In this document: positions 563 through 9,695 of the stretch, piece after piece
How positions within the stretch are numbered: position 1 is the stretch's first letter
Layout: the number at the start of each line of letters is the position of its first letter
NCBI GenBank assembly: GCA_947623815.1
Contig: CANQHO010000008.1
Span: 1 to 32,192, forward strand
Direction of reading: 5' to 3'
Length of the DNA: 32,192 nt
Origin: an uncultured Bacilli bacterium
GTDB lineage: Bacteria; Bacillota_I; Bacilli_A; RF39; UBA660
The notes under the pieces: generated by a model
What the model was told of the DNA's origin: nothing
The model's database searches: none
The model's input: the letters and a program-made list of their open reading frames with translations, nothing else
Made by a program: the position numbers and the translations under genes

Positions 563-1060
563 ATGAAAAAAAGACAAACAATTATAATAAGTTCATTACT
601 AACGGTATTTTTAGTAATGACGGCTGGTTATGCAGCTTTTACTAGTAAACTGACAATCAATGGAACAAGTCAAATCGTTGGAAAATGGGATATCAGAATA
701 ACTGACGTCAAAGTCCTAACTGTCGCACCTAATTGTGATGCCGGAACACCATCTTTTACTAATGACAATGTCACCTTTAATGCTTCTTTAAATAAACCCG
801 GCGATGTAATTACTTATTTAGTAACAATCGAAAATAAAGGAACTATTGACGCTACCTTGAGTGGAATATCTTTTTTAAGCAACGATGAAAAAGAATCACC
901 AGATATTATATATTCCGTAACTGATCCCAAAAAAGATTTACCCGCTCAAAGTGAAACATCCTTTAGAATAACAGTGACTTATAATCCAGATACTAAAGAA
1001 ATACCCAACCAAAAAACTAAAACAATTATCGGAACTATAAATTATGTTCAAAAATATTAA
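563..1060 (+). CDS. SipW-dependent-type secreted protein (TasA/camelysin-like)
   Basis: This is a 165-residue exported protein. A short basic start (MKKRQ) and a hydrophobic stretch (about residues 6-20) are followed by TAGYAAFTSKLTINGTS, the layout of signal peptides cut by SipW-type signal peptidases. The mature part is beta-rich. Near the middle it contains LNKPGDVITYLVTIENKGTI, a segment common in TasA/camelysin-type and other beta-sandwich surface proteins. It has no C-terminal LPXTG motif or transmembrane anchor. The start at 563 is preceded by AAAGGA; an in-frame ATG at 527 has no comparable site. A SipW-like peptidase gene begins 28 bases downstream, which strongly supports an enzyme-substrate pair. 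A fibre or surface role is inferred from family resemblance only. Confidence 0.7.
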   Translation: MKKRQTIIISSLLTVFLVMTAGYAAFTSKLTINGTSQIVGKWDIRITDVKVLTVAPNCDAGTPSFTNDNVTFNASLNKPGDVITYLVTIENKGTIDATLSGISFLSNDEKESPDIIYSVTDPKKDLPAQSETSFRITVTYNPDTKEIPNQKTKTIIGTINYVQKY

Positions 1061-1088
1061 ATATCATTATAACTAAGGAACTATCTGA

Positions 1089-2213
1089 ATGAAAAAGAAT
1101 TTCCCTTGGTTAATAATTTTAAATATTTATCTTATCATAACAATATTATTATCAATCAGTCATTTTAAAATATATACCAATATTATAAATCCACTGTTTT
1201 GGTTTATTATCTTACTACTTATAAATAAAAATAGTTTTAGATCATATCATAATCACTATAACCTTTATTTTATTATCCTCAACATTTTTATTATTACTAT
1301 ATATTTTTGTACCGGTTTTATATTAGGATTTACTAAAAGTCCCTATAATCATTCTATAATTAGTATCATCAAAAACACAATTATAAATGTATTACCTTTA
1401 ATTGGTATTGAAATACTAAGGTATACCACTATCAACCAAGAAAAAAGGCATCCATTTATTATAACTTTATTACTAATCCTAATAGAAATAAACTATAATC
1501 AAATTTTATCTTTACATTTAAAAAACGAACAATTTTTTAAATATATCTGCTCTTACTTTTTTCCCATCATATCTAATAGTATCTTATATACTTTTTTAAC
1601 AACCAAACAAATTAAAACTTATTATCTTAGAATAATAAATGCCCTAGTTATAATTTTATTACCCATTTTTCCCAATACCGATTGGTTTACCAATGGGGTT
1701 ATAGGATTATTCAATCCTATAATAGTTTATGTATTTTCTAAATACATGTTCCCAAAAGAAAGAAAAATAATAACCAAAAAAGAAAAACAGATAGAAAACT
1801 TAAATTATGTTTTGACACTAATTTTTGTTATCATCTTAACTGGTTTTATGTTAGGAATATTTAAATATAAACCGATTGCTATCCTATCTAACAGTATGTC
1901 ACCTAAATTTAATCAAGGAGATATACTTATTTACCAAAAGAAAAACAATTTAAAAAAAATAACTAAAAATACTATTATAATTTATAAACTTAAAAATCAA
2001 TACATTGCCCATCGAGTTATCAATATAAAAAAAATAAATAACCAATATTTTTATCAAACTAAGGGAGACAATAATAATACTTATGATAACAATTGGGTAA
2101 GTGAAAAACAAATCGAAGGGATATATGCCTTTCATATCAAATATATAGGTTTTCCAACTGTATGGTTAAATTACTATTTTAATAATAAAAAACCATTGGT
2201 TGGTATAAAGTAG
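1089..2213 (+). CDS. SipW-like (S26B) signal peptidase with a polytopic N-terminal domain
   Basis: Residues about 260-374 form a signal peptidase I domain. The nucleophile motif SNSMSP lies at 267-272 (predicted catalytic Ser269), and IAHRV has His308 in the place where bacterial type I enzymes have lysine. TKGDNN at 324-329 is the third conserved box. The Ser-His arrangement defines the S26B branch, which includes B. subtilis SipW and the eukaryotic and archaeal enzymes. B. subtilis SipW is about 190 residues. This protein is about twice that because it starts with roughly eight hydrophobic segments before residue 260. It lies between a SipW-type substrate and a DUF5305-like gene, probably in one operon. 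AAGGA precedes the ATG. Cleavage of the upstream protein is inferred from context. Confidence 0.8.
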   Translation: MKKNFPWLIILNIYLIITILLSISHFKIYTNIINPLFWFIILLLINKNSFRSYHNHYNLYFIILNIFIITIYFCTGFILGFTKSPYNHSIISIIKNTIINVLPLIGIEILRYTTINQEKRHPFIITLLLILIEINYNQILSLHLKNEQFFKYICSYFFPIISNSILYTFLTTKQIKTYYLRIINALVIILLPIFPNTDWFTNGVIGLFNPIIVYVFSKYMFPKERKIITKKEKQIENLNYVLTLIFVIILTGFMLGIFKYKPIAILSNSMSPKFNQGDILIYQKKNNLKKITKNTIIIYKLKNQYIAHRVINIKKINNQYFYQTKGDNNNTYDNNWVSEKQIEGIYAFHIKYIGFPTVWLNYYFNNKKPLVGIK

Positions 2214-2221
2214 GTAGATTT

Positions 2222-3193
2222 ATGAAGAAAAAAGTTTTGATAATTATAACCATTCTGGGTTTAATTTTAATAACTATCGGTTTTAAAACAACCAGTAAAA
2301 AAAGCATATACAGTTATCAAACTACAAAAGATAGTCCTTATCAAGTTTTATTAAAACCAAACGATCTCTACCCTAATTTAACTTTACCATCTGGTCATTA
2401 CTATTTATCTTCTTCAATAAAATCTTTAAAAATAAATTTTAAATACCATTTTAAAAGTTTTGAACCAAGTAATATCAAATATACTTACAATATTTCTTCT
2501 AAACTAATAGGTTCTATGAAAGATGACAATCTAGAACTTAAAAATATCTGGTTTAAAAATTTTACTTTAGTTCCTAATACTTCTAAAAAAAATATAAAAA
2601 ATTCTTTTGACTTAGAAAAACCAATAAGTATCGATTTAGATTTTTATAATAATTTAGTCGCTCTTTATGAAAAAACATACAATGTTTCTATAAGTGCTAA
2701 TCTAAAAGTATTTTTAAATATTTCCTATGAAATAAACAGTAAAAATTTAAAAAATAAAATCATTAAAGACCAGATTGAACTAGTTATTCCACTTACTGAT
2801 AACATAACCGAAGTTAAAGAAAACTATACTAAAAAAAATAATCAAACCATAGAAAAAAAGAACAACAATATTTTTAACTTTTATAATGGTATAGGTTTAT
2901 TATTAGTTATCTACCCAATTATTTTAGGGGTAATAAAAATTACTAAAAACGATATGTCCACTCTAAATATTAAAAATATTCTAAAAAAATATAATGATTT
3001 AATAGTAACGGTAACTAATAAACCCGATATGTCCAATTTAAAAATAATGTTTTTAAAAAACTTTGATGATTTAGTTATAGTTGCTAATCAAAATCAAACC
3101 AATATAATAAATTATAAGGTATCAAATAAACAAAACAATTTATATGTCATAGTCCAAAACTATATATATATTTATAAAATAACAACAAAATAA
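2222..3193 (+). CDS. DUF5305-like membrane protein
   Basis: This 323-residue protein has an N-terminal hydrophobic helix (about 4-22), a long beta-rich extracytoplasmic region and a second helix at about 220-240, followed by a short soluble tail of about 80 residues. The pattern YQVLLKPNDLYPNLTLPSGH near residue 40, followed by predicted strands (YYLSSSIKSLKINFKYHF), resembles the DUF5305 family, which often sits beside SipW-like signal peptidases. That assignment is from memory of the family pattern. The gene starts 8 bases after the peptidase stop, with only a weak TAGGTAG ribosome site, which suggests translational coupling. A hairpin terminator follows at once. It may help assemble or anchor the secreted protein, but no biochemical role can be read from the sequence. 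Confidence 0.55.
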   Translation: MKKKVLIIITILGLILITIGFKTTSKKSIYSYQTTKDSPYQVLLKPNDLYPNLTLPSGHYYLSSSIKSLKINFKYHFKSFEPSNIKYTYNISSKLIGSMKDDNLELKNIWFKNFTLVPNTSKKNIKNSFDLEKPISIDLDFYNNLVALYEKTYNVSISANLKVFLNISYEINSKNLKNKIIKDQIELVIPLTDNITEVKENYTKKNNQTIEKKNNNIFNFYNGIGLLLVIYPIILGVIKITKNDMSTLNIKNILKKYNDLIVTVTNKPDMSNLKIMFLKNFDDLVIVANQNQTNIINYKVSNKQNNLYVIVQNYIYIYKITTK

Positions 3194-3212: not shown

Positions 3213-3239
3213 AAAAATACTTCATTTTGAAGTATTTTT
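3213..3239. terminator. Bidirectional terminator between convergent genes
   Basis: Two 12-base arms (3213-3224 and 3228-3239) pair perfectly around a TTT loop. Runs of A on the left and T on the right let it work for the SipW cassette (+) and for the ABC exporter (-). The exporter stop codon overlaps the right arm. Confidence 0.8.
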
Positions 3240-8169: not shown

Positions 8170-9034
8170 ATGGATAAAATAATAACTAAAATCAAAAAAA
8201 CGCAATTAGAAATATTTGAAAATGCTAACGCTAATGTAATGGATTTATATTTCTATATTGGTAAAATTATATATGAGAATAGTGAATATGGTAACAATTT
8301 TATAAATAAAATCTCGATTGAATTAAAACTTAAATTTTCTAACGCTAAAGGTTACTCTCCTAGAAATCTTCGTGATATGAAGAAGTATTATTTATCTGTA
8401 AAAGACAATGAACTATTGAAGAAATATTCATATAAAATTCCGTGGTCACACAATACATTAAATGCATCGAGTTAAGGATTATAATCAAAAAATATGGTAT
8501 ATAAAAGAAACATATAATAATGGTTGGAGTTATGATTATTTAGAAATTCAAATAAAGCGAGATGCATATAAGAGACAAATTTTTGGAGATAAACCTAATA
8601 ACTTCAAATTAACTCTTTTACAACCTCAAAGTTTATTGGCAAAAGAAATTATGAAAGATCCTTATATATTTGATGTTGGTGCTTTACGTGAGAATTTTGT
8701 AGAAAAGGATATTGAAAAAGCAATGATAGATAGAATTAAAATGACTTTGTTAGAGTTAGGAAATGGATTTAGTTTTATCGCTAATCAGTATAGAGTTACA
8801 GTTAATGATGAAGAAAATTTTATTGATTTATTATTTTATCATACGAAACTACATTGTTATATTGCAATTGAACTTAAAAACAAAAAATTTATACCAGAAT
8901 ATGCAGGAAAAATGAATTATTATTTATCTGCCCTAGATGATATGTTAAAAACCGAACTAGATAATCCATCTATAGGTATTATACTTGTCAGAAATAAGAA
9001 TAAATTAAATGAGGAAAATTTCAAAGGTTTCTAA
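8170..9034 (+). pseudogene. Frameshifted DUF1016 (YhcG-type) PD-(D/E)XK nuclease
   Basis: Two consecutive frames make up one DUF1016/YhcG protein. The first (8170-8475) holds the N-terminal domain and ends IPWSHNT. The second (from 8462) continues VKDYNQKIWYIKETYNNGWS, then LQPQSLLAKEIMKDPYIFD, and the nuclease core ENFIDLLFYHTKLHCYIAIELK, which has the D and E-x-K residues of the PD-(D/E)XK fold. Removing one A from the AAA at 8460-8462 would join them as SHNT-L-MHRVKDY, so a single-base insertion broke the gene. The C-terminus is also short: the usual INKPIGVSEY-like tail is missing after NKLNEENF. DUF1016 proteins are often found near restriction systems. AAGG lies before the first ATG. 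The gene is inactive unless frameshifting occurs. Confidence 0.8.
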
Positions 9035-9169: not shown

Positions 9170-9427
9170 ATGAACACAATAAATATAACTAATGCGAGAG
9201 CAAATTTATTTCAAATAGTATCAGATGTAAATGTTGGATACAATCCAATTACAATTGTTAATAACAAAGGAAAAAATGCAGTTTTAATATCAGAAGATGA
9301 ATGGAAAAATATTGAAGAAACTTTATTTTTATCAAGTATGCCAGGCTATGTTGAAAATATAAATGATATAAAAAAGAATGAAAACTGGGATAATGCTAAG
9401 GAATATGTCAAAGATGAAGAATGGTAA
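9170..9427 (+). CDS. yefM: Phd/YefM-family antitoxin
   Basis: The 85-residue protein has the YefM fold signature. It opens NITNARANLFQIVSDV, a DNA-binding N-terminal region, and continues with PITIVNNKGKNAVLISEDEW, the conserved central strand-turn-helix of the family. The acidic tail (KEYVKDEEW) would wrap the toxin. The antitoxin neutralises the co-encoded YoeB-type toxin and, as a complex, represses the promoter whose GTAC palindrome lies just upstream. GAGGTG sits 7 bases before the ATG. The gene overlaps the toxin gene by 14 bases, typical of coupled translation. It looks intact, unlike the two decayed genes upstream. Confidence 0.9.
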   Translation: MNTINITNARANLFQIVSDVNVGYNPITIVNNKGKNAVLISEDEWKNIEETLFLSSMPGYVENINDIKKNENWDNAKEYVKDEEW

Positions 9428-9695
9428 TTTTTATACAATTAAATTTTCTAAACAAGCTGAAAAAGATAAAATTAAACTAAAAAGTGCTAATTTAGATAAA
9501 AATTGTAAAAACATATTAAATTTAATGCTTGAAGATCCATTCTGTTACCCACCAACATATGAAAAATTAAATGGTGAATTATCTGGTTTGTATTCTAGAA
9601 GAATAAATAGACAACATAGAATTGTATACGAAGTTATAGAAAGTAAAAAAGAAATTCACATTTTAAGAATGTGGACACATTATGAAAAAATATAA
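9414..9695 (+). CDS. yoeB: Txe/YoeB-family mRNA interferase toxin
   Basis: The 93-residue protein shows the RelE-fold YoeB signature: FYTIKFSKQAEKDKIKLKSA, then PPTYEKLNGELSGLYSRRIN, then RQHRIVYEV and the ending ILRMWTHYEKI. The conserved glutamate, arginines and C-terminal His-Tyr pair are all present, so it should be active. YoeB cuts mRNA in the ribosomal A site and stops translation. The start at 9414 is preferred because AAGGA lies 11 bases upstream; the in-frame ATG at 9405 has this site only 2 bases away. The start lies inside the antitoxin reading frame. Confidence 0.9.
   Translation: MKNGNFYTIKFSKQAEKDKIKLKSANLDKNCKNILNLMLEDPFCYPPTYEKLNGELSGLYSRRINRQHRIVYEVIESKKEIHILRMWTHYEKI

Follow-up and report, generated by a model that had tools for sequence, protein, structure and literature searches.

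Why should a signal peptidase carry a many-helix membrane domain, and why should its gene stand between one for a small secreted protein and one for a protein of the DUF5305 family? The question is raised by the left end of a stretch of DNA of 32,192 nucleotides (the window), which is one whole contig (CANQHO010000008.1) of an uncultured Bacilli bacterium whose 1.36 Mb genome lies in 96 contigs and is 94.6% complete. Three open reading frames (ORFs) on the + strand follow one another there with gaps of 28 bp and then 8 bp. The first (563..1060, +) encodes 165 amino acids (aa) from an ATG – a signal peptide, then a beta-rich domain – and is a candidate fibre subunit of the secreted Tas/AbpX-like kind (Tas, below); the second (1089..2213, +) encodes a 374-aa fusion of a putative CPBP-fold membrane domain with an S26B signal peptidase, the type found in the endoplasmic reticulum and in archaea; the third (2222..3193, +) encodes a 323-aa DUF5305 protein, recognized by its match to PF17231 (58.6, gathering cut-off 29). 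A sequence-only reading had taken 563-3193 for a compact three-gene operon with a DUF5305-like third member, both of which these data uphold, and had suggested a minimal fibre or pilin-like system distinct from tapA-sipW-tasA. Our analysis makes it probable that the cassette is a minimal kit for making, that is for secreting and assembling, a surface fibre of the donor-strand type.

The case for a fibre begins with the secreted protein. Its signal peptide is presumed to be cleaved after GYA (residue 24), with Phe26 at P2', and among the 48 rows of the Tas profile the presumed site has Tyr or Phe at P2 and Ala or Ser at P1 without exception (48/48 for each), together with an aromatic residue at P2' in 38/48. 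When the profile was compared to all solved structures, AbpX came out on top (9sj2, E 2.7e-9; 9rhp, E 4.8e-7); searched as a single sequence, a Thermoproteota Tas protein adjoining a polytopic S26B matches AbpX at 4.5e-8, and another does so at 0.02. Judged from such profiles, Tas resembles the archaeal bundling-pilus subunit AbpX more closely than it resembles TasA – a likeness that, with the P2' aromatic residue, is consistent with the suggested fibre system, and that goes beyond what the sequence-only reading had seen. TasA, ABP and ABPx fibres are all termed donor-strand exchanged in one source (PMC11952670), and TasA is described, in another, as having Phe at P2' and being cut by the archaeal-like SipW, such sites being poor substrates for LepB of E. 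coli (PMC10269814). Two results count against a fibre of this kind: TasA itself lies far behind AbpX in the profile search (E 0.13 and 0.14), and the window protein scores 19.2 against the TasA/camelysin model PF12389, below the gathering cut-off of 22.5.

Many loci encode extra Tas proteins, of which 23 of 240 distinct ones have at least 350 residues (the largest 1996), and small Tas genes are often in tandem, with seven in locus L155. These features bear on an alternative that we consider unlikely, in which a dedicated signal peptidase serves one or a few surface proteins that form no fibre: Tas would remain monomeric, as an adhesin or a matrix protein, and DUF5305 would act in quality control or anchoring. 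It is true that the fibre is something we infer, that the relation to AbpX is one between profiles, and that many loci hold large proteins with Ig-like domains or repeats behind the same signal peptide; yet the nearest solved relatives of Tas polymerise (AbpX first, TasA weakly), and the runs of up to seven small Tas genes are arranged as are those for major and minor pilins. As to the large proteins themselves, examples of 726-1996 aa with a Tas-type signal peptide stand beside the cassette at L053:1-5989, L061:6907-12699, L101:2-4249, L150:9973-12333 and L156:9974-12154; among four that were scanned, some have repeat or Ig-like (immunoglobulin-like) domains and, close to the C-terminus, weak matches of Hint type.

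The second gene encodes the enzyme that would cut such a substrate. Its distal part (1776..2213, +) comprises an anchor helix (residues 230-255) and the S26B catalytic domain. The protein passes the archaeal-type signal peptidase I model TIGR02228 with 90 bits (cut-off 51.85) and PF10502 with 26.6 (cut-off 22.9), and stays well below the cut-off of 190 for the Bacilli SipW model NF046067 (69.9 bits). The catalytic part matches SEC11A at E 8.5e-26, over profile positions 255-378 only. In an alignment of 53 rows (the window plus 52 relatives from the 80 named loci described below, short, cut and redundant ones being excluded), Ser269, His308, Asp327 and Asp333 are invariant (53/53); the remaining alignments comprise two of 48 rows each, hand-picked from labelled ORFs, and one of 27 rows. 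The AlphaFold2 model of the whole protein has a mean predicted local distance difference test score (pLDDT) of 91 and a predicted template modelling score (pTM) of 0.86. The description of this protein as a Ser-His S26B peptidase of polytopic, archaeal style is borne out. A census of the source genome by profile search returned one polytopic S26B, one DUF5305 and one Tas-profile protein; it also holds one weaker S26 match of ordinary size (a 172-aa frame).

If the three genes form a system, they should be found together elsewhere, and the sequence-only reading had named absence of co-occurrence in relatives as one of two results that would speak against it. Co-occurrence is strong and extends to archaea. 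Among 145 genomes of the family, a DUF5305 bait matches in 74 and a front-end bait in 67: both are present in 65, the front end only in 2, DUF5305 only in 9, and neither in 69 (Fisher p 1.9e-28, for species that are not independent). Neither of the two genomes with the front end only is a firm exception: in the congener G135 a profile search (E 5e-78) located, at its proper position, a DUF5305 gene that the Pfam model had not detected, and G136 has a weak front-end match (9.7e-4) with stops. When the locus around the best DUF5305 match was taken from each of the 73 other matching family genomes, a polytopic S26B was found to adjoin DUF5305 in 54, and in 47 of those 54 a Tas gene lies upstream. 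In the converse search, named genomes were queried with the peptidase, and out of at least 452 relatives the best 80 were examined, a set biased to near kin because it is ranked by likeness to the window. Of these loci 75 have a polytopic S26B, with DUF5305 in the locus in 69/75 and adjoining on the same strand in 68/75, whereas none of the five with a short peptidase has it (0/5; Fisher p 1.9e-5); indeed, DUF5305 is absent genome-wide from all five genomes with a short SipW-like peptidase. Nor is it found in any of 14 control genomes, 8 of which have a TIGR02228 match (Bacillus subtilis and Haloferax included).

Not every locus conforms. DUF5305 is without a polytopic S26B in 16/73 loci (some at contig ends, one with a stop-broken peptidase frame), two more loci have no labelled gene, and one has the peptidase but no DUF5305 by profile; moreover, DUF5305 is missing from the entire genome in three Chloroflexota whose S26B is polytopic, so that it is not obligatory. 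To these may be added the structural matches of DUF5305 itself (VIA), the best of which (Z 7.5) is unspecific and Ig-like, tied among TRAP subunits and Ig domains of transglutaminases. All of this counts against the reading as a fibre cassette.

The DUF5305 model (pLDDT 93.7, pTM 0.71) predicts a helix (2-22), a beta-sandwich (27-212), a second helix (215-256) and a small alpha/beta domain (261-321). The sandwich would presumably be extracytoplasmic and the 261-321 domain cytosolic, the outward placing of the sandwich being suggested by the two helices. A fold search gave no match at E 0.001, and no credible sequence relative was found among solved chains; a chain of the human signal peptidase complex (7p2p_B; Foldseek E 0.012, TMq 0.16) was too weak a match and was not used. 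Could DUF5305 have nothing to do with the fibre and simply share the operon, say as a protein of envelope stress or of regulation? This appears somewhat less probable even than a cassette for non-fibre surface proteins. The predicted cytosolic domain would suit such a role, as would the solitary copies beside housekeeping genes in several family genomes, but DUF5305 tracks the polytopic front end through bacteria and archaea, and the genomes with short SipW-like peptidases (0/5) are without it. The solitary genes, standing beside housekeeping genes and without S26B, are those of L063, L079, L082, L086, L098 and L106. Separately, short frames of 74-79 aa in eight Thermoproteota genomes (G167, G176, G192, G200, G216, G231, G238 and G245) align with DUF5305 over its final 50 positions alone, and may represent the C-terminal domain encoded on its own.

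The order Tas – S26B – DUF5305 is found in Bacilli, in Clostridia, in a metagenome-assembled genome (MAG) labelled Saccharibacteria, in an Archaeoglobaceae archaeon and in Methanosuratincola. There are variants: in Lachnoanaerobaculum a Tas gene follows DUF5305 and none precedes the peptidase, and in a second Saccharibacteria-labelled MAG DUF5305 comes first. In Thermoproteota DUF5305 matches were obtained in 24/200 genomes, 14 of them over the cut-off. Sixteen stretches were drawn, non-randomly, from such matches (G146 itself and matches at E > 1e-5 being excluded), and in five (L237, L238, L240, L242 and L245) Tas genes, a polytopic S26B and DUF5305 are clustered; in L242 and L245 it was Pfam, not our own profile, that revealed the DUF5305 gene (30.1 and 25.5 bits; cut-off 29). 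In a 34-row tree of the peptidase the archaeal rows stand apart from gut Bacillota on long branches, which gives no hint of a recent transfer into archaea. The Saccharibacteria-labelled rows (L156, L164) group inside Bacillota: their cassettes are either transfers or mis-binned contigs.

There remains the front end of the peptidase (residues 1-229; 1089..1775, +), for which "about eight" extra membrane segments had been counted from the letters. The estimate is fair, because the AlphaFold2 model has eight helices ahead of the anchor (5-24, 26-44, 55-79, 90-118, 122-142 in two pieces, 146-172, 178-190 and 199-220), though that at 178-190 is short for a full membrane crossing; six extra segments, a count from hydropathy alone, was corrected accordingly. 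When Foldseek matches were re-aligned, SEC11 was followed in second place by SpdC (Z 11.6 over 212 residues, model 1-224) and in third by Rce1 (Z 10.9 over 210 residues, model 3-225), with no polytopic membrane protein among the remaining rows shown. SpdC is described as an Abi-domain protein in PMC5854430, and Rce1 is counted as CPBP/Abi-type by the title of its structure entry. Because Z-scores under 13 can reflect a common helical arrangement, a second line of evidence was sought. In two archaeal genomes (G220 and G450, both Thermoproteota) the cassette is split: a Tas-like gene is followed by DUF5305, a free-standing membrane protein (270 to 291 aa) and a separate S26B (166 to 175 aa), so that an Rce1-like protein and a separate peptidase come directly after DUF5305 (L235:7061-8390 and L251:6392-7814). 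The free-standing proteins exceed the Pfam Rce1-like cut-off (26.9 and 26.4 vs 22.4), and the front-end profile aligns with the pair in hhalign at 74% (score 39.2, 148 columns), compared to a best score of 21.0 (1.6%) among the 72 clusters of other membrane proteins used as controls. In the G450 locus, the gene at L251:8954-9631 matches no profile and is called Tas for its signal peptide and position. A search of 300 Thermoproteota with the archaeal CPBP protein matched four genomes at E 0.001 (G220, G450, G295 and G187); it is part of the cassette in G220 and G450, and is found outside it in G295 and, as a second copy, in G220.

Other comparisons tell against a CPBP identity. Both Z-scores are below the level of about 13 at which the tool advises caution with helical bundles; no match to PF02517 or to any other Pfam family was found for the front end in 42 fused members (E 0.1); the front-end profile does not separate the relatives' generic CPBP proteins (n = 13) from 99 background membrane ORFs (p 0.46); and hhalign of the front end with ordinary CPBP proteins gives 3.8%. 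We have kept the CPBP assignment despite this failed sequence link, on the strength of the fold match and of the split operons in two archaea: the front end is most likely a CPBP domain that has diverged, joined to the peptidase here but encoded by its own gene in those two genomes – a resemblance also unseen by the sequence-only reading. Genes matching the CPBP profile near the cassette (3/4037 ORFs) are given no weight, CPBP genes being common; for the record, they lie directly after the cassette DUF5305 (L041), directly before a solitary DUF5305 (L106) and about 1.4 kb before a short S26 (L186).

Catalysis by CPBP proteins involves the motifs EExxxR, FxxxH and HxxxN. In the front end Glu108 (52/53 rows) and Arg111 (51/53) line up with the region that holds the Glu-Arg motif in Rce1-like relatives, at a spacing one residue shorter than in EExxxR. 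There is no conserved His pair across the alignment: the best His column (88) is filled in 24/53 rows and sits in a loop, and therefore protease activity of the front end is unlikely. By this criterion of residue conservation the domain is probably a scaffold that has lost the CPBP histidines. That it is instead an active intramembrane protease, the fusion making two successive cuts, is very improbable, the CPBP fold match and the aligned Glu and Arg being offset by the want of a His pair and by the altered Glu-Arg spacing.

Under the donor-strand reading, the cassette would work as follows. The Sec pathway would export the Tas/AbpX-like subunit; S26B, held in a CPBP-fold scaffold that is probably no longer a protease, would cut the Tas signal peptide and so free an N-terminal strand; and assembly would proceed by strand exchange, with DUF5305 beside the peptidase – the three proteins being in contact – as a membrane-bound assembly or anchoring factor, taking the place that TapA or CapP has in Bacillus. 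In larger loci the additional proteins that bear the Tas-type signal peptide (some as long as about 2,000 aa) may be extra or tip subunits.

A wider proposal is possible, although we hold it only tentatively and with more doubt than confidence. The CPBP scaffold, S26B and DUF5305 may constitute one membrane complex common to bacteria and archaea, a prokaryotic equivalent of the signal peptidase complex of eukaryotes, in which cleavage is coupled to strand hand-over; its clients would be AbpX, TasA-like proteins and many unnamed surface proteins of gut bacteria, and DUF5305 would be the missing assembly factor of archaeal bundling pili. Apart from this proposal, the analysis assigns DUF5305 to a process and interprets a membrane domain that had no annotation: it is likely a CPBP scaffold joined to a signal peptidase, for which the naturally split cassettes are evidence. 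Machinery, in addition to the subunit, would then link archaeal bundling pili to the TasA-like fibres of bacteria. A testable claim also follows, namely that in cells with a single membrane a signal peptidase complex at that membrane may drive donor-strand assembly.

A strong hairpin (approximately 3213..3239), likely a terminator, lies between the convergent DUF5305 and ABC-transporter genes. It was recognized by folding (-10.3 kcal/mol, z -4.3, with no shuffle equally good), a G+C-based consensus terminator scan of the window having listed none; G+C content of the window is 20-37% per kilobase. Elsewhere in the window a DUF1016/YhcG nuclease gene (8170-9034) is in two overlapping frames, DUF1016_N in the first and YhcG_C in the second, and is apparently frameshifted, and a YoeB-like toxin gene lies at 9378-9695.

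How does the cassette compare with known systems? The literature searched describes neither the fused front end nor any part played by DUF5305 in fibre assembly, and no paper in it names DUF5305; the main paper on archaeal bundling pili lay outside that search, so the locus may be partly in print. Like tapA-sipW-tasA of B. subtilis and sipW-tasA/calY with CapP of B. cereus, the window has a secreted beta-rich subunit, a dedicated S26B and an aromatic P2' residue; partner roles fall to TapA in Bacillus and to CapP in B. cereus, according to PMC9674648 and PMC13082335. Unlike tapA-sipW-tasA, the window peptidase has an eight-helix front end and is accompanied by DUF5305, and there is no fourth gene to stand for TapA, as judged by gene order (no TapA model was run). 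With the eukaryotic signal peptidase complex (SEC11A/C) the peptidase shares the S26B catalytic domain but neither its membrane part nor its partners. SpdC and Rce1 have the fold predicted for residues 1-225, whereas the window domain is fused to a signal peptidase and its catalytic histidines are unconserved. The closest likeness by subunit profile is to archaeal bundling pili: AbpX belongs to the same subunit family, and the AbpX-like loci of Thermoproteota (L238, L242 and L245) have a polytopic S26B and DUF5305 adjoining, although the cassette described here, in a gut-type member of the Bacillota, has a single subunit gene.

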